Assembly: GCA_029879735.1 (NCBI GenBank)
Contig: JAOUPS010000011.1
Location: 1 to 33,225 of the forward strand
Direction of reading: 5' to 3'
DNA from: Candidatus Bathyarchaeota archaeon
GTDB lineage: Archaea; Thermoproteota; Bathyarchaeia; Bathyarchaeales; Bathycorpusculaceae
DNA length: 33,225 nucleotides
Below, one piece after another: positions 12,854 through 29,337 of this stretch. A program made the position numbers and the translations under genes. The notes beneath the pieces were generated by a model. It saw only the letters and a list, made by a program, of their open reading frames with translations. It searched no databases and was not told the origin of the DNA. The first letter of the stretch is position 1, and every line of letters starts with the position of its first letter.

Positions 12854-12902
12854 ATTGAAATGTTCTTCTAAAGCGTGTGTACAGACATGCGAGGAATTAA
12901 CC

Positions 12903-14216
12903 TTGAGTAACAATGCTGTAATTGTGGTTGGCGGAGGCATAGCCGGAATGCAAGCGTCCTTGGACCTTGCCGACCGAGGGCTCACAGTCTATCTCGTGGA
13001 GAAATCCCAAAGCATCGGAGGACGAATGGCTCAGCTTGACAAGACCTTTCCAACAATGGATTGTTCGATATGCATACTTGCCCCAAAAATGATCGAGTGC
13101 TTCCGCCACCCAAACATCAAACTGTTCACATGCTCAGAAGTAAAAGAAGTTACTGGTTCAGCTGGAAGCTTCCAAGTAAAGGTTTTGAAAAACCCCAGAT
13201 TTATTGATGCAGACAAATGTACTGGCTGCGGTACATGCACAGAAAAGTGTCCCGTTAAAGTGCCAAACGAATTCGACATGGGCATGGGAACGCGAAAAGC
13301 CATCTATATGCCTTTCCCGCAAGCAGTACCCCGCATAGCCACAATAGACAAAGACCGCTGCTTATACTTTCGAAAAGGAATATGCAGAGTGTGCGAAAAA
13401 TTCTGCCCAGCGAACGCAATCAACTTCGACCAAAAGCCTGAAGAAACAACACTCGATGTTTCAAGCATTATACTGGCCACAGGACTAGACCTCTATGATC
13501 CTGCGTCCATAAGCGAGTACGGGTATAAACGCTACAAGAATGTTCTTTTGTCACTGGAATTTGAAAGGCTCATCAACGCTTCCGGACCGACTCGTGGAGA
13601 AATTTTGAGGCCCTCGGATAGAAAGCACCCTCACAGAATAGTTTTCATACAATGTGTTGGCTCAAGAACCTCGCAGAAGGGATTCCCTTACTGCTCCAGC
13701 GTCTGTTGTATGTACGCCACAAAAGAAGCAATTCTCGTAAGAGAACACAACCCAGAATGTGAAGTTTACATCCTCTATATGGATCTAAGAGTGTTCGGGA
13801 AACGATTCCAAGAATTCGTCAGCAGAGCCAAAGACGAGTGGGCTGTTAAATACGTTAATGGGCGACCATCTGCGATTATGGAAGATCCGGAAACAAGGGA
13901 TCTCTTGATTCGATACCAAAACGTTATGGATGGAAAGATAGAAGAGTTACGTGCAGGTTTAGTTGTCCTCTGTCCGGCTTTAATTCCAAGAAAAGACAAT
14001 AAGGTTCTAGCCAAAATTTTGGACTTGGAATTAAATGAACATGATTTCTTCAAAACGAATGACCCCTTGCTTACGTCAGTTAAAACAAACATACCCGGAA
14101 TCTTCGTTTGTGGCTTTTGTCAAGCACCTAGGGACATTTCTGAGTCAGTTACGCAAGCCAGTGCAGCGGCAGCCGAAGCCGCGGAGGTAGCTGTATCTGC
14201 TATTGCCGGGAGATAG
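12903..14216 (+). CDS. hdrA: HdrA/QmoA-like flavoprotein
   Basis: Short HdrA-family flavoprotein of 437 residues; full HdrA is about 650. The FAD core starts at once with VVGGGIAGMQASLDLA and the hallmark GGRMAQLDKTFPTMDCS and CILAPKM. The inserted ferredoxin domain is present: CTGCGTCTEKCP, then C-x8-C-x2-C-x3-C in the KDRCLYF...CRVCEKFCP segment. The conserved FIQCVGSR and YCSSVCCMYATKEA cysteine cluster follows. The N-terminal HdrA domain and the C-terminal ferredoxin are missing; the next gene supplies both. TTG 12903 has GAGG 8 nt upstream and follows the TATA box at 12846. By length and partner it resembles QmoA. Inferred role: FAD hub of a soluble, possibly bifurcating complex with the next three products. 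Confidence 0.85.
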   Translation: MSNNAVIVVGGGIAGMQASLDLADRGLTVYLVEKSQSIGGRMAQLDKTFPTMDCSICILAPKMIECFRHPNIKLFTCSEVKEVTGSAGSFQVKVLKNPRFIDADKCTGCGTCTEKCPVKVPNEFDMGMGTRKAIYMPFPQAVPRIATIDKDRCLYFRKGICRVCEKFCPANAINFDQKPEETTLDVSSIILATGLDLYDPASISEYGYKRYKNVLLSLEFERLINASGPTRGEILRPSDRKHPHRIVFIQCVGSRTSQKGFPYCSSVCCMYATKEAILVREHNPECEVYILYMDLRVFGKRFQEFVSRAKDEWAVKYVNGRPSAIMEDPETRDLLIRYQNVMDGKIEELRAGLVVLCPALIPRKDNKVLAKILDLELNEHDFFKTNDPLLTSVKTNIPGIFVCGFCQAPRDISESVTQASAAAAEAAEVAVSAIAGR

Positions 14217-14220
14217 CCAG

Positions 14221-16356
14221 ATGGAAAAGAACAAAGAACTAAGAATTGGGATTTTCGTCTGTCATTGTGGTTTCAACATCGGTGGAGTGGTTGATGTCCC
14301 AGAGGTTGTGGAGTATGCCAAAACTTTGCCTAATGTTGTTTGCGCCGAAGAAAACCTTTACGCATGCTCATCCGCTGGATTAAACCTCATCAAAGAATGC
14401 ATAAACAAGCATAGTCTAAACCGCGTTATTGTTGCATCTTGCACGCCTGGAACCCATGAACCCCTTTTCAGAAACACATGTGAAGAAGCTGGCTTAAACA
14501 AATACCTTTTCGAAATGGTCAACATACGAGAGCACTCTTCATGGGTTCACATGCAACATCCAAAAGAAGCAACAGAGAAAGCCAAGGACCTTATCAGAAT
14601 GGCTGTCGCAAAAGCAAGCTATCTTAAACCACAGATAGAGTCAGAACTTGAGATAAACCCCTCAGCTTTGGTGATCGGAGGGGGAATAGCTGGAATGAGT
14701 GTAGCCATGTCCCTTGCAAGACAAGGCTTCAATGTTCACTTGGTTGAAAAAGAAGCAGAACTTGGCGGAATGATAAGACGCTTATATAAGCTCCAACCCA
14801 CTGAGCGTGACGCCTCAGAAGTTCTTCGAGAAGCCGTTACAGCCGTAAAGGCTAACAAGAACATACACGTACACATGTCAACCCTAGTTAAAGAAGTGGA
14901 AGGCTTCATTGGAAACTTTGACGTAAAGCTTCAAGAGAAGGATTCAAACGAACTTGAGCAAATCAACGTGGGAACAATGATCGTGGCTACTGGAGCTGAG
15001 GCGTTCAAGCCTGTGGGAATGTATGGATATGGGGAAGATGAGAACGTTGTGACACAGTTAGAACTTGAACGGCTTCTCAAAAAGGGTGAACTAAGCGAAC
15101 CCAAAAGAGTTGTTATGATCCAATGTGTCGGAGCCAGAGAAAAAACTGGCAGAACATATTGTTCTAGAATATGTTGCATGGTAGCCCTCAACAATGCACT
15201 ACTTCTCAAAAAATTGTATCCGAATGTTGAGGTTAGCATTCTTTTCCGCGACCTGCAAACTTACGGAGAGTATGAAGATTTTTACCGTGAGGCAAGGGCG
15301 AACTTCATCAACTTCATCCGTTATGATCAGGATAGACCTCCAAAAGTCGCCTTAAAACCTGATGGGAAATTAATCGTTACAGTTTATGACTCGTATTTAA
15401 GCGCTGAAATCGAGATGGACAGCGACTTGGTTGTTCTGTCAACGCCTCTAGTTCAGCATGAGGATGGAAGAAAGCTTTCTCCTGTACTTAAGGTGCCCTT
15501 GGGTACCGATGGCTTCTTCTTCGAGGCGCATCCGAAATTGAGACCCGTTGACTTTACATCAGAGGGGATATACGTTTGCGGCACAGCCCACGGCCCGAAA
15601 GACGTGCCTGAGAGCATCGCCCAGGCTTACGCTGCCGCGTCAAGAGCAGCCATTCCCATGGCTCTGAGGAGGGTAAAGGCTGGAGCCATCAAGGCGACCG
15701 TTGACAAGGATGTGTGTGTCAACTGTGACGCCTGTGTGGTTTCGTGTATCTTTAACGCCATCGACGCTGAACCCTTTGGATTGCCCAGCATCATTGAAGC
15801 CAACTGCAAGGGCTGTGGAGTCTGTGCGGCGGAGTGTCCTATGGCTGCCATGCAACTCGCACACTTCACTGATCAACAGATCGTCGCAGCCATTGAAGCC
15901 CTCTTCAAACCGAAGAAGCTTGTGACTTCAAGCGGAAGTTTCGAGCCCATAGTTTTGTGTTTTGCGTGTCAATGGTGTTCCTATGGCGCTGCTGACCTCG
16001 CAGGAGTTTCGAGGATTCAGTATCCGCCAAACGTTCGAATCCTGAGAGTTCCTTGTAGCGGCAGGGTTGACGTGCTTCATGTTCTGAAGGCTTTTCAGAA
16101 CGGTGCCGACGGAGTCATCGTAACTGGCTGCCACATTGGCGATTGTCACTACATAGACGGAAACTTGAAGGCCAAAGACAGAATCGACGCATTGAAGAAG
16201 TCTCTAAAGGCTCTGGATATAGACCCAGAACGCCTAGAGATAGGCTTTGCCTCGTCTTCTGAGGGACACAGATTTGCAGAGATGATGACGAACTTTGTGG
16301 AAAAGATACGGAGACTTGGACCGAATCCTTTAACAGTTAAGGGAGGGGTCGGCTAA
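14221..16356 (+). CDS. HdrA-MvhD fusion flavoprotein (QmoB-like)
   Basis: 711 residues. The N-terminal HdrA domain (IGIFVCHCGFNIGG, then SCTPGTHEPLFRNTC) is followed by FAD binding from about residue 150 (VIGGGIAGMSVAMSLA), here without the inserted ferredoxin. QCVGAR and CSRICCMVALNNA follow. A two-cluster ferredoxin lies at about 493-545 (CVNCDACVVSC and CKGCGVCAAECP). An MvhD/FlpD domain with a [2Fe-2S] site is at about 578-700 (CFACQWCSYGAADLAG, PCSGRVD, GCHIGDCHY). HdrA proteins usually have a cysteine where this one reads REHSSWVH. The order HdrA-short then HdrA-MvhD is that of qmoA-qmoB. Start ATG 14221 has GGGAGA 7 nt upstream and is 4 nt past the previous stop. Confidence 0.87.
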   Translation: MEKNKELRIGIFVCHCGFNIGGVVDVPEVVEYAKTLPNVVCAEENLYACSSAGLNLIKECINKHSLNRVIVASCTPGTHEPLFRNTCEEAGLNKYLFEMVNIREHSSWVHMQHPKEATEKAKDLIRMAVAKASYLKPQIESELEINPSALVIGGGIAGMSVAMSLARQGFNVHLVEKEAELGGMIRRLYKLQPTERDASEVLREAVTAVKANKNIHVHMSTLVKEVEGFIGNFDVKLQEKDSNELEQINVGTMIVATGAEAFKPVGMYGYGEDENVVTQLELERLLKKGELSEPKRVVMIQCVGAREKTGRTYCSRICCMVALNNALLLKKLYPNVEVSILFRDLQTYGEYEDFYREARANFINFIRYDQDRPPKVALKPDGKLIVTVYDSYLSAEIEMDSDLVVLSTPLVQHEDGRKLSPVLKVPLGTDGFFFEAHPKLRPVDFTSEGIYVCGTAHGPKDVPESIAQAYAAASRAAIPMALRRVKAGAIKATVDKDVCVNCDACVVSCIFNAIDAEPFGLPSIIEANCKGCGVCAAECPMAAMQLAHFTDQQIVAAIEALFKPKKLVTSSGSFEPIVLCFACQWCSYGAADLAGVSRIQYPPNVRILRVPCSGRVDVLHVLKAFQNGADGVIVTGCHIGDCHYIDGNLKAKDRIDALKKSLKALDIDPERLEIGFASSSEGHRFAEMMTNFVEKIRRLGPNPLTVKGGVG

Positions 16357-16357
16357 C

Positions 16358-18582
<2,225 letters not shown>

Positions 18583-19960: not shown

Positions 19961-22042
19961 ATGACACACAGAAGAAAGTTCGAAAGAGAACGCCCACTTT
20001 CTGAAAAAGTGCACGTAATGGAAAAGCAAGAAAAAAGTTTCGAAAGCGCAGGGTTCTATGGAACACTATTTAACAACCTAATTAATCATGAGGAAATTGA
20101 AACAAAAGACCTGAAAAAAGGCGACATTTGCTTATATTTTGATGTTTGGCGCGAACCTTACAGGATTGGCGATGATAAGGTGTCTGAGACTTTTATGGAA
20201 GTAATTATTGGAAAGGTGGAAAATTCGGCGCCATTAACCTTTTCAGAGGCTATATGTCTAAACACCTATCAAGACAGCGTAAGCTATTCTGGAGGAATTT
20301 TTACGTGGTCTAGAGGATCAATGTTTTCTCCTCATCAACTTATACCAGTTGACCATGAAGTATTTCAAAAATTGAAGGAAGCATTGAATACAAAAAATTG
20401 GACAGAAAATGTTTCATATAATAAAAGACACGTCGCTGCTTTCGTTCGTAATTTGGAGAGCTACTTCACGGGAAAACTCCTTGTCATGAAGGCTGGAGAG
20501 GAAAAACCATCTATCTCTTTAAAGGGTGAAGGGGATTTCGAAAGGGCGAGGTTTTACGAACCATTAGTCAACATCCTGATGAGCCAAGATAAGCCTGAAA
20601 CAATGGTCCTGAAAAAAGGCGACGTTTCCTTATATTTTGATGTTTGGCGCGAACCTTACAGGATTGGCGATAGGAAAGTTTCTGAGACTTTTATGGAAGT
20701 AATTATTGGAAAGGTGGAAAATTCGGCGCCATTAACCTTTTCAGAGGCTATATCTCTAGACACTTATCAGGACAGATTAACTTATTCTAAGGGAAGATTA
20801 ACATGGTCTAGAGGATCAGTGGTTTCTCCTCACGAGCTCATACCAGTCGACCATGAACTATTTCAGAGATTGAAGATAACGCTGAAAACCAAAAAGTGGA
20901 CAGAAGATGTTTCACACAACAAAAAACACATCACCACCTTCGTTCGACACTTAGAGAATTTCTTCACGGGAAAATGCCCCGGCAAAAACTATAGAGTAGT
21001 TCAGAAAGACTTGTTAGTAAAAGGATCCAACGGACTAAATGCCATTATAAGTCTGGAGGTGAAAGCCCCAGAAATAGCGGCAGAGGCTGCTCCTGGACAA
21101 TTTGTTGTGATTAGGCTCCATGAAAGGGGAGAACGAATTCCCCTCACCATCGCAGAGATCAAAAAAGATGAAGGTTTGATTAGGATAATCTTTCAAGTTG
21201 TTGGAAAAACCACGGAAGAATTGGCAACGGTGAAAAAAGGAGAGTTTGTCTTAGATGTATTAGGACCTCTAGGAAACCCCGTTGAGCTCAAAAAGTACGA
21301 TAAACCTGTGATTTGTATTGCTGGAGGAGTTGGCGTCGCATCAATCTATGCCAAGACAAAAGCGCTGAAGGAAAAAGGCAACTACGTCGTATCAATAATT
21401 GGCGCAAAAAGTAAAGACATTCTAATCTTGGAAGAGGAGATGAGAAAAGTAAGTGACGAACTTTATGTGACCACAGACGACGGCTCTTATAAATTCGTTA
21501 GAGACGGATCGGAATGCTTGCATAGGGTAAGAAAAAACGGCTTTAAGGTATACGGTGGTTTTGTAAATAGTGTCTTAGAAGCTTTATTCGGCAATTATAA
21601 ACTACTAACTAGAGAAAACGAGGGAATAAAGGAGCCCGACAAAAAGTTTCTAAACTATGGGCCTCGCCAAATGGTTGGCAGACACTCTCTTAACAACATT
21701 GCGGAAATCATTGCTGTTGGTCCCATACCAATGATGCGGGCAATCGTAAATGTAGTCGCTGGGAATGGCAAGTATAATCCTGAAACAGATTACAGAAAAG
21801 ATCTAGTCAAGACCCTTGTGAGTTTAAACCCTATCATGGTTGACGGAACAGGTCTGTGTGGTTGCTGCAGGGTAAGAATATACAATCCAGAAAAGAAGAA
21901 GTATGAGACCAGGTTTGCCTGCGTTGACGGCCCTGTATTCAATGGACTTCTAGTTGATTTTGACTCGCTCTTAAGAAGAACCACTCAATATAAACCAAAA
22001 GAGGAGAAATCTGCAAAATATCTGGAAACCATCGGGTGGTAG
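19961..22042 (+). CDS. NfnA-like oxidoreductase with duplicated unknown N-terminal domain
   Basis: 693 residues; ordinary NfnA is about 275. Residues 27-172 and 193-338 are two copies of a domain I do not recognise, 166 residues apart. Both share LYFDVWREPYRIGD, KVSETFMEVIIGKVENSAPL and HNK/YNK-to-FFTGK ends. From about 342 the chain is NfnA/SudB-like: PGQFVVIRL, RIPLTIA, ICIAGGVGVAS, then the [2Fe-2S] loop DGTGLCGCCRV with FACVDGP. About 60 extra residues (near GGFVNSVLEALFGNYKLL) sit before that loop. Start ATG 19961 follows GAGG about 10 nt upstream. An nfnB-like gene begins 6 nt after its stop. The repeats have no cysteines matching a cluster motif; a partner-docking or regulatory role is only a guess. 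Confidence 0.85.
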   Translation: MTHRRKFERERPLSEKVHVMEKQEKSFESAGFYGTLFNNLINHEEIETKDLKKGDICLYFDVWREPYRIGDDKVSETFMEVIIGKVENSAPLTFSEAICLNTYQDSVSYSGGIFTWSRGSMFSPHQLIPVDHEVFQKLKEALNTKNWTENVSYNKRHVAAFVRNLESYFTGKLLVMKAGEEKPSISLKGEGDFERARFYEPLVNILMSQDKPETMVLKKGDVSLYFDVWREPYRIGDRKVSETFMEVIIGKVENSAPLTFSEAISLDTYQDRLTYSKGRLTWSRGSVVSPHELIPVDHELFQRLKITLKTKKWTEDVSHNKKHITTFVRHLENFFTGKCPGKNYRVVQKDLLVKGSNGLNAIISLEVKAPEIAAEAAPGQFVVIRLHERGERIPLTIAEIKKDEGLIRIIFQVVGKTTEELATVKKGEFVLDVLGPLGNPVELKKYDKPVICIAGGVGVASIYAKTKALKEKGNYVVSIIGAKSKDILILEEEMRKVSDELYVTTDDGSYKFVRDGSECLHRVRKNGFKVYGGFVNSVLEALFGNYKLLTRENEGIKEPDKKFLNYGPRQMVGRHSLNNIAEIIAVGPIPMMRAIVNVVAGNGKYNPETDYRKDLVKTLVSLNPIMVDGTGLCGCCRVRIYNPEKKKYETRFACVDGPVFNGLLVDFDSLLRRTTQYKPKEEKSAKYLETIGW
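20039..20476 (+). repeat. First copy of intragenic ~438-bp direct repeat
   Basis: Encodes domain copy 1 of the NfnA fusion. Offset to copy 2 is exactly 498 nt. Blocks 20131-20173 (43 nt) and 20183-20255 (73 nt) are identical to copy 2, while flanking parts differ at many positions. Confidence 0.85.
20537..20974 (+). repeat. Second copy of intragenic ~438-bp direct repeat
   Basis: Encodes domain copy 2. Identical blocks are 20629-20671 and 20681-20753. The mosaic of identical centre and diverged flanks suggests gene conversion after duplication. Confidence 0.85.
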
Positions 22043-24798: not shown

Positions 24799-24847
24799 TT
24801 AGTATTTCTTTTATTAACTCTCTTTAAGCTAGGTTTGAGTGAAGCTT

Positions 24848-25327
24848 ATGTCAAAAATTACGACTGCACATGAGAAAGTGTTGCTCTACGACCCTAAACG
24901 ATGCACCGGATGCCGCTACTGTGAAATTGCCTGTGCTTTTTATCATTTCAAGCAGTTCGACCTTGAAAAGGCCCATTTGCATATACCGTTTGATGAGAAA
25001 AACGGTGACTTTGAAGCCATATACTGTCAGCACTGCGATGAGCCCGTCTGCGTTGCTGCCTGCCCAAGCGAAGCAGCAGTAAAAGACGAAGAAACTGGTT
25101 TGGTGGAAATAAACCCCATGAGATGCATAGGCTGCAAAACATGCACTTTCGCTTGTCCACTTTCAGTTCCGTGGTTCAATGCGGACTATCAAGTTTCAAT
25201 GAAGTGTGACTTTTGCGACGGCGACCCGCAATGTGCCAAGTTCTGTTCTCCACAAGCCATACGGGTTGCGACGCGAAAAGAGGCATGGGAATTTAATAAA
25301 AAACACTACGTAGAGGTGTTGACGTAA
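24848..25327 (+). CDS. Four-cluster ferredoxin-like electron-transfer subunit
   Basis: About 159 residues of the HycB/CooF/DmsB type. Four cysteine groups are visible: CTGCRYCEIAC, CQHCDEPVCVAACP, CIGCKTCTFACP and CDFCDGDPQCAKFC. That is 16 cysteines, enough for four [4Fe-4S] clusters. There is no signal peptide, so it is cytoplasmic. It leads the hydrogenase operon and would carry electrons between hydrogenase and HdrB-like or other partners (inferred). Start: ATG 24848 with GAGTGA 6 nt upstream, or GTG 24839 in the same frame. The stop TAA overlaps the next ATG by one base. Confidence 0.88.
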   Translation: MSKITTAHEKVLLYDPKRCTGCRYCEIACAFYHFKQFDLEKAHLHIPFDEKNGDFEAIYCQHCDEPVCVAACPSEAAVKDEETGLVEINPMRCIGCKTCTFACPLSVPWFNADYQVSMKCDFCDGDPQCAKFCSPQAIRVATRKEAWEFNKKHYVEVLT

Positions 25328-25998
25328 TGGTTTCGGAAAATGAAATAACAACTTATCTGAGGCAGGAACTCGGCGAAGACCTAATCAAAGCGTCAAAAAC
25401 CCGTGAAAGAAGAGTGTCCGTGAGAATCAAGCCAACCGCCCTCAGAAAAGCCGTAAACGCTCTGCAAAAGCAATACCCGACGCTCCGTTTCATGACCCTT
25501 TCAACGGTTGACCACGGCTTAGACTTTGAATTCCTACATCACTTTCACGTGGATGGAGCCGTTGTAACACTGAGAAGTGTAAAGCCTAAAGAAGACAACA
25601 CCCTAGAATCCATAGTAGACCTTATTCCAGCGGCCAATTTCATAGAAAGAGAGGTTGCTGACCTTTTCGGTGTAAAACTAGTTAATCACCCACAACCGCA
25701 GCATCTAATACTGACAAAGGATTGGCCAGATGACAAGCGACCATTAAGAAGACCATTAGAAGGCGAACTTCCACCGCAAGCAAGACCGGTGGCTGAAGCG
25801 TTAATATCAACCAGCTGTGTAGCCCCGATATCAGCGTTTATGCAGAAAAAACGTGAAGAAGCAGGCCTACCCAGGACTCCGCCTTTCGCGTTCACGGATG
25901 AGAAAACCATGGAAGAATTCCACGGAATCATGAAGGATACAAACTTGGCCAAGAAGGCTGGCTATGACTGGAAGAAAAAAAGGTTGCGGTACAAGTAA
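25327..25998 (+). CDS. NuoC/HycE-N-like hydrogenase subunit
   Basis: 223 residues, 30-kDa-subunit family of complex I and group 4 hydrogenases. The signature FIEREVADLFGVKLVNHPQ followed by LILTKDWPDDKRPLRRP is clear. These proteins bind the outer face of the large subunit and carry no cofactor. The C-terminal half (RPVAEALISTSCVAPIS onward) is an extra region I do not recognise. The start overlaps the ferredoxin stop by one base, so the two are coupled. Its presence places the hydrogenase downstream in the complex-I-related (group 4) class and not in the Mvh/Frh class. Confidence 0.85.
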   Translation: MVSENEITTYLRQELGEDLIKASKTRERRVSVRIKPTALRKAVNALQKQYPTLRFMTLSTVDHGLDFEFLHHFHVDGAVVTLRSVKPKEDNTLESIVDLIPAANFIEREVADLFGVKLVNHPQPQHLILTKDWPDDKRPLRRPLEGELPPQARPVAEALISTSCVAPISAFMQKKREEAGLPRTPPFAFTDEKTMEEFHGIMKDTNLAKKAGYDWKKKRLRYK

Positions 25999-26015
25999 CG
26001 GAGAGTGATTGAAGA

Positions 26016-26891
26016 ATGGTTAAATACGTATCATTCCTGGGATGCCAAATCCCTATGCGAATCCCAAGCATAGAAATAGCCTCGAGAAAAGTTTTTGAAA
26101 AAATAGGGCTGGAAACGGTTGACCTTCCGGGTTATTCATGCTGTCCCGAACCGGTAGTTTCCCGGCTGTTGGATAAAACCGCTTGGTTGGTAACGTCAGC
26201 GAGAAACCTGGCATTAGCAGAAGAACTTGGATCAGACCTAATGACATTATGCAATGGCTGCTATGAAACCCTAGTTGAAACAAATGAGGTTCTGAAACAT
26301 GATCCAGAAGAACTGCGAAAAACAAATGAGGTTCTGAAACGCTACGGCAAACAATACACTGGAAAAGTCAAAGTGAAACATGCCGTTGAGGTTCTTTATG
26401 AAGAGATAGGCGTTGACAGAATCAAGCAGCAAGTAGTCAAACCTCAGAAAATCCGGGTAGCTCTCCACTATGGATGCCACCTGTACCGCGAACCAGAAGG
26501 AGAAGACATTATGCGAAAACCAAACATGATGAAGGAATTAACCCGTCTGACTGGCGCGGAGATTGTTGACTATAGACTTGAACGTTTATGCTGTGGATAT
26601 CCAAGCATGCAAGCAGACGAAGAGTTTTCACTGAAGCAGAGGCTGCTTTTAAAATTAAGGCACATAAAAGAAGCTGGAGCAGACGCCGTAGTTCTAACGT
26701 GTCCAGCTTGCACAATACAGTTCGAAATAGGTCAAGTAATGTTAAAACGATATGGCGTTCAATACAACATTCCATGCATCAACATGATGGAACTACTGGC
26801 GTTATCCTTTGGAGTTCCATCAAAAGACCTGCATCTTGAACTTCATAAAAGCCCTGTTTTACGGTTGGCTCAAAAGATGGAGGCGATGTAA
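26016..26891 (+). CDS. hdrB: HdrB-like CCG-domain protein
   Basis: 291 residues, the size of HdrB. Two complete cysteine-rich (CCG) motifs are seen. The first runs from FLGCQIP through YSCCPEP to LCNGCYE; the second from HYGCHLYREP through RLCCGYPSMQ to TCPACTIQF. In HdrB these bind two non-cubane [4Fe-4S] clusters that reduce CoM-S-S-CoB. No methanogenesis gene is seen, so the physiological disulfide or other acceptor is unknown. HdrC is missing; the four-cluster ferredoxin may replace it. It sits between the NuoC-like gene and the [NiFe] large subunit, an odd place for hdrB. An 18-nt repeat encodes the TNEVLK copies near residues 89 and 103. Confidence 0.85.
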   Translation: MVKYVSFLGCQIPMRIPSIEIASRKVFEKIGLETVDLPGYSCCPEPVVSRLLDKTAWLVTSARNLALAEELGSDLMTLCNGCYETLVETNEVLKHDPEELRKTNEVLKRYGKQYTGKVKVKHAVEVLYEEIGVDRIKQQVVKPQKIRVALHYGCHLYREPEGEDIMRKPNMMKELTRLTGAEIVDYRLERLCCGYPSMQADEEFSLKQRLLLKLRHIKEAGADAVVLTCPACTIQFEIGQVMLKRYGVQYNIPCINMMELLALSFGVPSKDLHLELHKSPVLRLAQKMEAM

Positions 26892-26892
26892 G

Positions 26893-28020
26893 ATGCCTAA
26901 GATAGTTCAAATTGGACCTTATCGTCCCCAACTAGTGGAACCCGAACGCTTCGAACTCGTTGTTGAAAACAATAAAATAATTGACGTGAACATCGAGTTA
27001 GGGTATGTCCATCGTGGCATAGAAAAACTGTTTACCACAAAAACTTACATGCAAAACCTTGCACTGGCCGAACGCATCTGCGGGATCTGCTCAGGCGTAC
27101 ACACACTCTGCTATGCCCAAACAGCGGAAGGCGTGCTGGACGCAACTGTTCCAAACCGAGCCAGATACCTAAGATGCATCTATACGGAATTAGAACGACT
27201 TCACAGTCATTACCTATGGTTTGGGGTTCTTGCCCATAGCCTGCACGAACATGAGGCCTTCCTAAAAATAATGGGCGAGCGGGAACAAGTGCAAGACTTA
27301 CTAGAATATTTGACTGGAAACAGGATGAACTACCTGATCAACACAATCGGCGGCGTAAGAAGAGACATAACGCCAGAAAAAGCAGAGAAAATCCGGAAAG
27401 TCCTCAACAACATGAAACCGTTACCTAGCTACATACTCTCGCTTTTAGATGACAACGGTGCTTTCACGAAGAAAACTAAAGGCGTAGGAATATTACCAAA
27501 AGAAAAAGCGCTCGCAGTTGGTGCAGTAGGTCCAACCCTCCGCGGTTCAGGAATAAAAAGCGACGTACGTAAAGATGACCCGTACGCTGCATACGGAGAA
27601 CTAGACTTCGAAGTAGTAACAGAAGAAGACGGTGACGTGCGTGCAAAATCACTTGTCAGAGCTAGGGAAAATTTCGAAAGCGTAAAGATAATCGAGCAAG
27701 CCTTGGATAATCTTCCAAGCGGAGAGATTGCAGTAAAACTAGGCAAACCGCTAGAGAAGGAAGAGGTTGGAAGGGCAGAAGCCCCAAGAGGAGAACTTGT
27801 CTACTACATTAAATCAAACGGCACAAACATTCCAGAAAGAGTGAAAGTGAGAACACCTTCGTTCGCCAACGACTTCGCACTAATTGAAATGCTTCGCGGA
27901 GACATGTTGCAAAACGCCAGAGTCATAATTGAAAGCATTGACCCGTGCTTCGCATGCACCGACCGCGTAGCAGTGGTAGACACAAAAACCAGTAAAAAAC
28001 GGAGGATGATTTTGAAGTAG
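26893..28020 (+). CDS. [NiFe] hydrogenase large subunit, group 4 type
   Basis: 375 residues, the short size of group 4 catalytic subunits. The L1 motif RICGICSGVH gives Cys63 and Cys66; the L2 motif DPCFACTDR gives Cys352 and Cys355. All four Ni-Fe ligands are kept, so it is a hydrogenase and not a Nuo/Fpo-like subunit. VEPERFELVVENNKIIDVNI and GYVHRGIEKLF at the start are typical of the family. The C-terminus extends 20 residues past DPCFACTDR. ATG 26893, 1 nt after hdrB, has GGAGG 9 nt upstream; an upstream open frame inside hdrB is not a real extension. No membrane subunits accompany it. Confidence 0.92.
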   Translation: MPKIVQIGPYRPQLVEPERFELVVENNKIIDVNIELGYVHRGIEKLFTTKTYMQNLALAERICGICSGVHTLCYAQTAEGVLDATVPNRARYLRCIYTELERLHSHYLWFGVLAHSLHEHEAFLKIMGEREQVQDLLEYLTGNRMNYLINTIGGVRRDITPEKAEKIRKVLNNMKPLPSYILSLLDDNGAFTKKTKGVGILPKEKALAVGAVGPTLRGSGIKSDVRKDDPYAAYGELDFEVVTEEDGDVRAKSLVRARENFESVKIIEQALDNLPSGEIAVKLGKPLEKEEVGRAEAPRGELVYYIKSNGTNIPERVKVRTPSFANDFALIEMLRGDMLQNARVIIESIDPCFACTDRVAVVDTKTSKKRRMILK

Positions 28021-28031
28021 GAGGAACAAAC

Positions 28032-28928
28032 ATGAGTGAAAAAATCTCGATTTACCGTTTCATGTCCGCCGGATGCAACGGATGCGATGTCCAAATCCTA
28101 GAATGCCTCGTTCCACGCTACAAACTCGCAGAACTAGGTGTAGAAGTTGTTTTCACACCAGAAGAAGCAAATGTCTTAGCAACAACAGGGGGCATAAACG
28201 TCAAAGGAAGAGAAGAATTAAAGAAAGCCTATGAAAAGCTTAAGCCGCCGAAACTTGTTGTAGCAGTTGGCAACTGCGCCATCACAAAAGAAATCTTCGA
28301 TAAAGGCTATCCAATGGTTGGACCACCAGACCAAATAATTCCTGTCAACTTTTACATTTCCGGATGCCCACCAAGACCACAAGCAATCGTCACAGCAATC
28401 GCAAAAGCCTTAGGAGCAACTCTAGAGGAAAAGGAGGATTATTGGGCAACTCCTGAAGGTTTCAGAGGAAAACATGAATTCGACAGCGAAAAGTGCATGG
28501 GCTGCAGTGCATGTGCCCAAGTCTGCAGTTCCGACGCAATTGATGTTTTAGAAGACAATGGAAAACGCATTATTAAGGTTGATTATGGACACTGTTCCTT
28601 CTGCGCCTTCTGCCAAGATGAATGCCCAACTGAAGCCATAAAACTAACGCAAGAATACCATCTGTTGACGGATAACCGAAGCACGACGAACGTCACAAAT
28701 GAGGTGGACTTGTTTAAATGTTCATCTTGTGGAACCTACTTTATACCAGTGCCCCAAGTCGATTGGGCGCTTGAAAGAATAGGAAATGAAGTCAGCGAAT
28801 ACAAAGATTTTCACAGCGACCTAAAAACCGCGATTGAAGTATGCTTAAACTGTCGAAGAGAAATCAGAAACATACGAAATGCGAAAAAACTATTGGCACA
28901 ACTCTCAGCAAAGGTTCGAGCAGTTTAG
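28032..28928 (+). CDS. Hydrogenase small subunit fused to HycF-like ferredoxin
   Basis: 298 residues. The first ~130 are a NuoB/EchC-like small subunit with proximal-cluster cysteines Cys15 and Cys18 (GCNGCDVQ), Cys82 (VGNCAITKE) and Cys112 (GCPPRPQAI). Residues ~145-205 hold two [4Fe-4S] sites (CMGCSACAQVCSSDAI, CSFCAFCQDECPTEAI). The C-terminus has two paired cysteines (CSSCGTYF, CLNCRREI), a HycF-like zinc-ribbon-type tail. In Ech and FHL the small subunit and ferredoxin are separate proteins; here they are one chain. GGAGGA precedes ATG 28032. It closes the operon; T-rich DNA follows. Confidence 0.9.
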   Translation: MSEKISIYRFMSAGCNGCDVQILECLVPRYKLAELGVEVVFTPEEANVLATTGGINVKGREELKKAYEKLKPPKLVVAVGNCAITKEIFDKGYPMVGPPDQIIPVNFYISGCPPRPQAIVTAIAKALGATLEEKEDYWATPEGFRGKHEFDSEKCMGCSACAQVCSSDAIDVLEDNGKRIIKVDYGHCSFCAFCQDECPTEAIKLTQEYHLLTDNRSTTNVTNEVDLFKCSSCGTYFIPVPQVDWALERIGNEVSEYKDFHSDLKTAIEVCLNCRREIRNIRNAKKLLAQLSAKVRAV

Positions 28929-29130: not shown

Positions 29131-29337
29131 ATGGAAAAGTCTGTAAGAAGTCTAGCCAAAACGATATCTTGGCGCATAGTAGCAACTTCAACTACAATTC
29201 TTCTAGTGTTTCTGTTCACTGGAAACTTAGTCATAAGTGCAAGTGTCGGCTCCTTAGAGCTAATATCGAAAATTGTTATATACTACATTCATGAACGAGT
29301 ATGGAACTTGTCAAATTTTGGTAGAGAAACACCTTAA
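29131..29337 (+). CDS. DUF2061 small membrane protein
   Basis: 68 residues matching the DUF2061 pattern: SLAKTISWRIVATSTTI, a hydrophobic stretch LLVFLFTGNLVISASVG, then ELISKIVIYYIHERVW and a final NFGRE. Two helices are likely. Function is unknown in the family. GGAGTT lies 8-13 nt before the ATG. It stands alone about 200 nt after the hydrogenase operon, in T-rich DNA with no clear terminator hairpin. A GC-alternating tract (29345-29352) begins 8 nt after its stop. Confidence 0.82.
   Translation: MEKSVRSLAKTISWRIVATSTTILLVFLFTGNLVISASVGSLELISKIVIYYIHERVWNLSNFGRETP

Follow-up and report, generated by a model that had tools for sequence, protein, structure and literature searches.

An HdrB-linked group 4-type [NiFe] hydrogenase operon without membrane-subunit genes in Bathyarchaeia

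The window analyzed here is a 33,225-nucleotide stretch of DNA, contig C103 of a Bathyarchaeia metagenome-assembled genome (MAG; 2.14 Mb, 156 contigs, 91% complete), and its positions 24848-28928 carry a five-gene operon, all on the + strand, for a 16-Cys ferredoxin, NuoC, HdrB, a [NiFe] hydrogenase large subunit and a NuoB-NuoI fusion. The accepted view is that group 4 hydrogenases and complex I act through a membrane arm. We propose, with a probability of roughly 0.55, that this operon encodes a cytosolic group 4-type [NiFe] hydrogenase which has lost its membrane arm and in which HdrB would serve as a second catalytic site, making the complex an H2:disulfide oxidoreductase. A fuller picture has, in our estimation, about an even chance: a complex I superfamily member that no longer has any part of the membrane arm and acts, free in the cytosol, as a hydrogen:disulfide oxidoreductase, to which HdrB is attached via an HdrC domain transferred to NuoC, in archaea which lack McrA and would therefore use an undescribed disulfide. 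Loci, genomes and host-genome contigs are designated by L, G and C numbers, respectively.

Results

Operon structure

The genes are separated by gaps of -1, 17, 1 and 11 bp, and the stop codon of the ferredoxin gene overlaps the NuoC start as TAATG. GTG at 24839 is a possible alternative start of the ferredoxin gene; ATG at 24848 agrees with the orthologues, in which the 16 cysteines are also kept. Family searches agree with the first-pass annotation, made from the letters of the window, on the five genes, their positions and their order, with HdrB between the NuoC-like and large-subunit genes and the ferredoxin in front. Its gene calls were right, but it had missed the HdrC-like tail of NuoC, the fusion of NuoB with NuoI and the HdrB-linked group 4 hydrogenases already in the literature. 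Successive parts of the fusion protein match MbhJ, HycG and HycF in the PDB, and its CxxC...CxxC metal site was also recognized by alignment. No transmembrane (TM) segment was detected in any of the five proteins by a crude hydropathy scan, and family searches gave no sign of a flavin site or of another known coupling site. Neither HdrA nor a full HdrC gene lies within the five-gene unit, and the operon encodes no FdhF and no HycC/HycD.

Table 1 Features of the hydrogenase operon in the window
Feature	Position	Strand	Evidence
16-Cys HycB-like ferredoxin, four [4Fe-4S] sites	24848..25327	+	Pfam Fer4 families; PDB profile matches including HycB (formate hydrogenlyase, FHL) and HycB3/HycB4 (HDCR)
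NuoC-like subunit, N-terminal ~145 residues	gene 25327..25998	+	PF00329, E 2e-19; predicted fold similar to NuoC/MbhK/HycE
HdrC-derived C-terminal domain on NuoC, proposed HdrB dock	25762..25995	+	PDB HdrC matches; TIGR03290; HdrB binding putative
HdrB, two CCG domains, ten Cys ligands for two non-cubane clusters	26016..26891	+	PF02754 twice; TIGR03288; PDB HdrB
[NiFe] hydrogenase large subunit, NuoD/HycE type	26893..28020	+	PF00346, PF00374; Ni ligands and HycE catalytic residues
NuoB-type small subunit fused to NuoI/HycF-like two-cluster ferredoxin part	28032..28928	+	PF01058, Fer4; HycF-type CxxC...CxxC metal site

Absence of a membrane arm

No NuoH or NuoL homologue was found in or beside the operon in the window, so the earlier claim to this effect holds. 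The NuoH-like and antiporter-like subunits by which membrane-bound energy-converting group 4 enzymes are recognized are missing here. The host genome encodes three NuoD-like proteins and two NuoH, and each NuoH adjoins its own NuoD in complex-I-like clusters on C90 and C128. Screening whole genomes is important, since membrane arms in this order can be unlinked, as in G126, whose NuoBCDI cluster lacks NuoH and whose membrane genes are on other contigs. Unlinked membrane subunits, the finding that the first-pass annotation had set against its own proposal, were sought genome-wide and are absent from three near-complete carriers, G133 (92% complete), G136 (97%) and G147 (94%), which show no match to PF00146 (NuoH) or PF00361 (NuoL/M/N) and have the window-type NuoD as their sole PF00346 protein. 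The contig sequence of G133 is the same as that of JZ_bin_14, and that of G147 the same as that of A05DMB-4. An unlinked NuoH was rejected as a partner because these three carriers have none. In the 14 loci examined, no multi-spanning membrane protein is encoded by the nearest same-strand neighbours of the operon.

Clusters of NuoB-NuoC-NuoD-NuoI with Ni ligands and no adjoining NuoH were also observed at L103 (7728-10164; G126), L095 and L097 and, with only NuoD and NuoI seen, at L104. Since the membrane genes of G126 are on other contigs, its cluster is probably a split 4g complex rather than a soluble enzyme.

Active site and signs of lost coupling in the large subunit

The first-pass annotation had reported four retained Ni ligands and a NuoC-like partner, and both were confirmed (alignments; PF00329). 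The ligands, Cys 63, 66, 352 and 355 (numbered with ATG 26893 as the start), do not vary among the 15 orthologues aligned or among all 17 clade members of the tree alignment. The equivalents of HycE Glu193 (proton transfer) and of the canopy residues Ser283, Arg478 and Asp529 are also kept in the window-type sequences. In E. coli formate hydrogenlyase, His188, part of the beta1-beta2 loop of HycE, lies packed against HycC and HycD, which are membrane subunits (PMC9474812). This column holds Arg or Lys in all 17 window-type sequences (Arg in the window) and His in 46 of the 47 others, His being present in MbhL, HycE, NuoD and three membrane-bound HdrB-linked sequences. In addition, the alignment shows that the N-terminal extension of NuoI/HycF, which sits near the membrane surface in solved structures (PMC9474812), is missing where NuoI joins NuoB.

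A HycI-type maturation protease gene adjoins the operon in relatives (Pfam-confirmed in L078, by similarity in others), and HypF- and HypD-like genes were read from the sequence in several relatives; both support a real NiFe enzyme. Group 4-type large subunits ending exactly at the L2 motif DPCxSC(T/A)DR were seen at L032 16503-18092 (-), L099 8657-9793 (+) and L087 8004-9086 (+); with no C-terminal extension, maturation cleavage would be unneeded in these.

HdrB and the HdrC-like tail of NuoC

The top NCBIfam match of HdrB is TIGR03288 (E 8e-85; 285 bits, under the curated cut-off of 345), and its top PDB matches are all HdrB (E 3e-76). Each of the ten cysteines predicted to bind the two non-cubane clusters is invariant. 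At 26284-26341 (+), the HdrB gene contains the 19-bp exact repeat acaaatgaggttctgaaac twice, with its length unchanged relative to the orthologues.

NuoC has 223 aa, compared with 160 aa for the NuoC of the C128 complex of the host, and its last 78 residues resemble the C-terminal part of HdrC. In a single-sequence search with this tail, the four top PDB matches were all HdrC (E 0.003 to 0.03), and a profile search gave PDB HdrC at E 1.3e-11. The HdrC model TIGR03290 finds a match in each of the 17 NuoC members, and hhalign of the tail against bathyarchaeal HdrC gave E 3.4e-5 at a probability of 72. Only the HdrC tail is present on NuoC, and the two-cluster part of HdrC is absent. AlphaFold modelled the tail with low confidence (pLDDT <50 within full-length NuoC, mean 61 for the tail by itself), and the HdrC assignment is therefore based on sequence; a fold search with the NuoC model gave matches covering the NuoC part only. 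From these similarities, the HdrC-derived domain is likely a dock for HdrB. No prior description of an HdrC-tailed NuoC was found in the open-access literature, and we report it here as new. HdrC genes follow the operon in some relatives.

Distribution and phylogeny

A scan of named genomes recovered 17 archaeal loci with large subunits 77-88% identical to that of the window, all but one labelled Bathyarchaeota. The order ferredoxin-NuoC-HdrB-NuoD-NuoBI is kept in 13/13 uncut loci (L070, L079, L084 and L085 run into contig ends and were left out of this count). Within the order, 18 of 163 genomes carry a window-type large subunit at 76% identity or more, and the next relatives reach at most 51%. 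Among 398 genomes drawn from the phylum, the only carrier outside the class is G168 (L115/L135), whose NuoD is 57% identical and which carries these five genes on a contig of 5.8 kb. The synteny that the first-pass annotation had named as a check is thus shared by the 13 uncut relatives and a genome of another class, and is not a product of chance.

In a large-subunit tree of 65 sequences, the window clade has a support of 100/100, with G168 as its first branch. It is sister (91/81) to three loci, L137, L138 and L147, with the order NuoC-HdrB-NuoD-NuoH-NuoI-NuoB, two of which also have an antiporter-like gene; the window type therefore falls beside membrane-bound HdrB-linked forms. These sister loci fit the Ehd/Ehe description in PMC9723716, with which they were compared by description only. 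In the HdrB tree, one group unites the HdrB of the membrane-free and of the membrane-bound hydrogenases, and HdrB of HdrABC clusters falls outside it (94/85), so that HdrB and the hydrogenase seem to travel together. This tree is partly incongruent with the NuoD tree, the HdrB of L138 being closer to the membrane-free clade than the HdrB of either L137 or L147 is, and the branching inside the joint group is not resolved.

The HdrB link itself, put forward earlier as new, has a published history: Ehd, Ehe, Drh and Ehg are HdrB-linked group 4 hydrogenases, with Ehd/Ehe in Methanomethylicia and Culexarchaeia and with no antiporter subunit in Drh of Methanocellales (PMC9723716). Drh is putatively membrane-associated (PMC6046458), and hdrB2 is reported from an fpo-like operon of Bathyarchaeia, with fpoBDHL said to be always present (PMC8407382). 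For the membrane-free form, i.e. the complete loss of the membrane arm, we found no prior description in the open-access literature.

Neighbouring genes

Positions 12855-18582 (+) of the window carry an HdrA-like gene split in two, with MvhD/FlpD (PF02662) fused to the second part; NfnA- and NfnB-like genes come after it, and there is no HdrB or HdrC. At 19961-22042 (+), upstream of a GltA/NfnB-like gene, lies the gene of an NfnA-like protein whose long N-terminal part has two similar ~165-aa copies of one domain without a family assignment. In several relatives, an AsnC/Lrp-type regulator with a conserved C-terminal C(L/I)GCPAT motif is encoded divergently just upstream of the operon (L071 4573-5133, L075 5238-5840, L082 406-981 and L085 5220-5786, all -); it is possibly redox- or metal-sensing.

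Discussion

In the proposed enzyme, H2/H+ turnover would occur at the NiFe site, and electrons would pass through the NuoB cluster, the two NuoI/HycF-like clusters and the four HycB-like clusters to HdrB, whose two non-cubane clusters would reduce a disulfide to thiols. The relay would be that of formate hydrogenlyase, FdhF-HycB-HycF-HycG-HycE, with HdrB replacing FdhF and probably held through the HdrC-like tail of NuoC. Oxidation of H2 with disulfide reduction and no ion pumping appears the likelier direction; running the other way, the enzyme would require an additional low-potential source of electrons. With known thiol couples, disulfide reduction by H2 is a downhill reaction, so membrane coupling would be unneeded. 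Of the soluble hydrogenase-disulfide reductase proposed in the first-pass annotation, the group 4-type module without a membrane arm and its link to HdrB stand, and the sequence is compatible with either a disulfide reductase or an H2-evolving confurcating complex.

Several observations weigh against the cytosolic H2:disulfide oxidoreductase. McrA is absent from 22/22 carrier and sister genomes tested, and the methanogenic heterodisulfide was rejected as the substrate on this ground. The genome-wide absences were judged on MAGs. G168 retains the interface His and has a NuoH/NuoL contig elsewhere in its genome, unlinked to the operon, and may for these reasons be an intermediate state. A 68-aa, one-TM DUF2061 (PF09834) gene lies 203-205 bp downstream of the operon in the window (29131-29337, +) and in the close relative L069 (4734-4940). 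Finally, several relatives have HdrC-HdrB, HdrA or MvhD genes adjoining the operon, an arrangement suggestive of a larger assembly.

This last point leads to the main alternative, in which HdrB would be a conduit joining the five subunits to a bigger, flavin-based bifurcating or confurcating assembly that contains HdrA, and HdrA would determine the net reaction (of H2 with ferredoxin, NAD(P)H and/or a disulfide). HdrA, MvhD, HdrC or HdrB genes lie by the operon at L073, L074, L078, L079, L080 and L083, and the window has its split, MvhD-fused HdrA with NfnAB-like genes. However, the five-gene unit is without HdrA, no Hdr neighbour is present at L071, L075, L076, L077 and L082, the HdrA genes of the window are ~8.5 kb upstream with other genes between, and NuoC bears the HdrC tail without the two-cluster part. 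We regard such an assembly as rather unlikely. Attachment to the membrane via an unlinked NuoH-like subunit, or via a small membrane protein such as DUF2061, seems improbable: the unlinked arms of G126, the unlinked NuoH of G168 and the DUF2061 gene downstream in the window and L069 are in its favour, but G133, G136 and G147 are without any NuoH or NuoL/M/N, both NuoH of the host genome are paired with their own NuoD, the interface His is lost, and DUF2061 is not beside the operon in the remaining loci examined. It is very improbable that the enzyme evolves H2, with reduced ferredoxin entering at the HycB-like subunit and thiols acting as co-donor at HdrB (confurcation without a flavin) or with HdrB being only regulatory. 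Beta-oxidation genes read from the sequence of the window suggest a need for electron disposal, and the HycB-like subunit offers an entry port; nevertheless, the five proteins are without a flavin or other known coupling site, and the full conservation of the HdrB ligands makes a purely regulatory HdrB unlikely.

If the cytosolic H2:disulfide oxidoreductase is correct, an anchor-free relative with an intact catalytic site is a natural test that separates coupling residues from catalytic residues, the interface His being a first example. The HdrC-tailed NuoC can be a testable model for the attachment of HdrB to hydrogenases of group 4, the membrane-bound ones in the literature included, and the operon points to an undescribed disulfide couple in non-methanogenic archaea.

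Compared with known systems, the window type combines features of several enzymes. With Ehd, Ehe and the Ehd-like loci it shares a group 4 large subunit with Ni ligands and HdrB in the operon (PMC9723716), and with the Ehd-like L137, L138 and L147 also the NuoC-HdrB-NuoD order and the HdrC-like tail of NuoC. The Ehd-like loci keep NuoH and separate NuoB and NuoI, whereas the window clade has no membrane subunit and fuses NuoB with NuoI; Ehd/Ehe co-encode HdrC, of which the window unit has only the C-terminal domain, on NuoC. Drh, compared by description only, likewise has HdrB, a group 4 hydrogenase, no antiporter and a proposed direct disulfide reduction with H2, but unlike the window type it is putatively membrane-associated (PMC9723716, PMC6046458). 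E. coli formate hydrogenlyase (PMC9474812) has counterparts of HycB, HycE, HycF (with the CxxC...CxxC metal site) and HycG in the operon, which carries HdrB instead of FdhF and no HycC/HycD arm. Hfo, the 11-subunit 4g hydrogenase of Bathyarchaeia (PMC7886697), is also a bathyarchaeial group 4-type enzyme and is resembled by the C128 cluster of the host; it has a full membrane arm, no HdrB and a separate tree branch, and 4g membership of the window type was rejected on its different branch and lack of membrane subunits. HdrABC-MvhAGD (group 3c) is soluble too, with two non-cubane clusters in HdrB and a C-terminal domain of HdrC similar to the NuoC tail, but it has a group 3 hydrogenase, the flavin site of HdrA and a full HdrC, and the host encodes such a set separately on C59. 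Membership in group 3c was rejected because the large subunit is of the NuoD/HycE type by family matches and tree and the unit has no HdrA.

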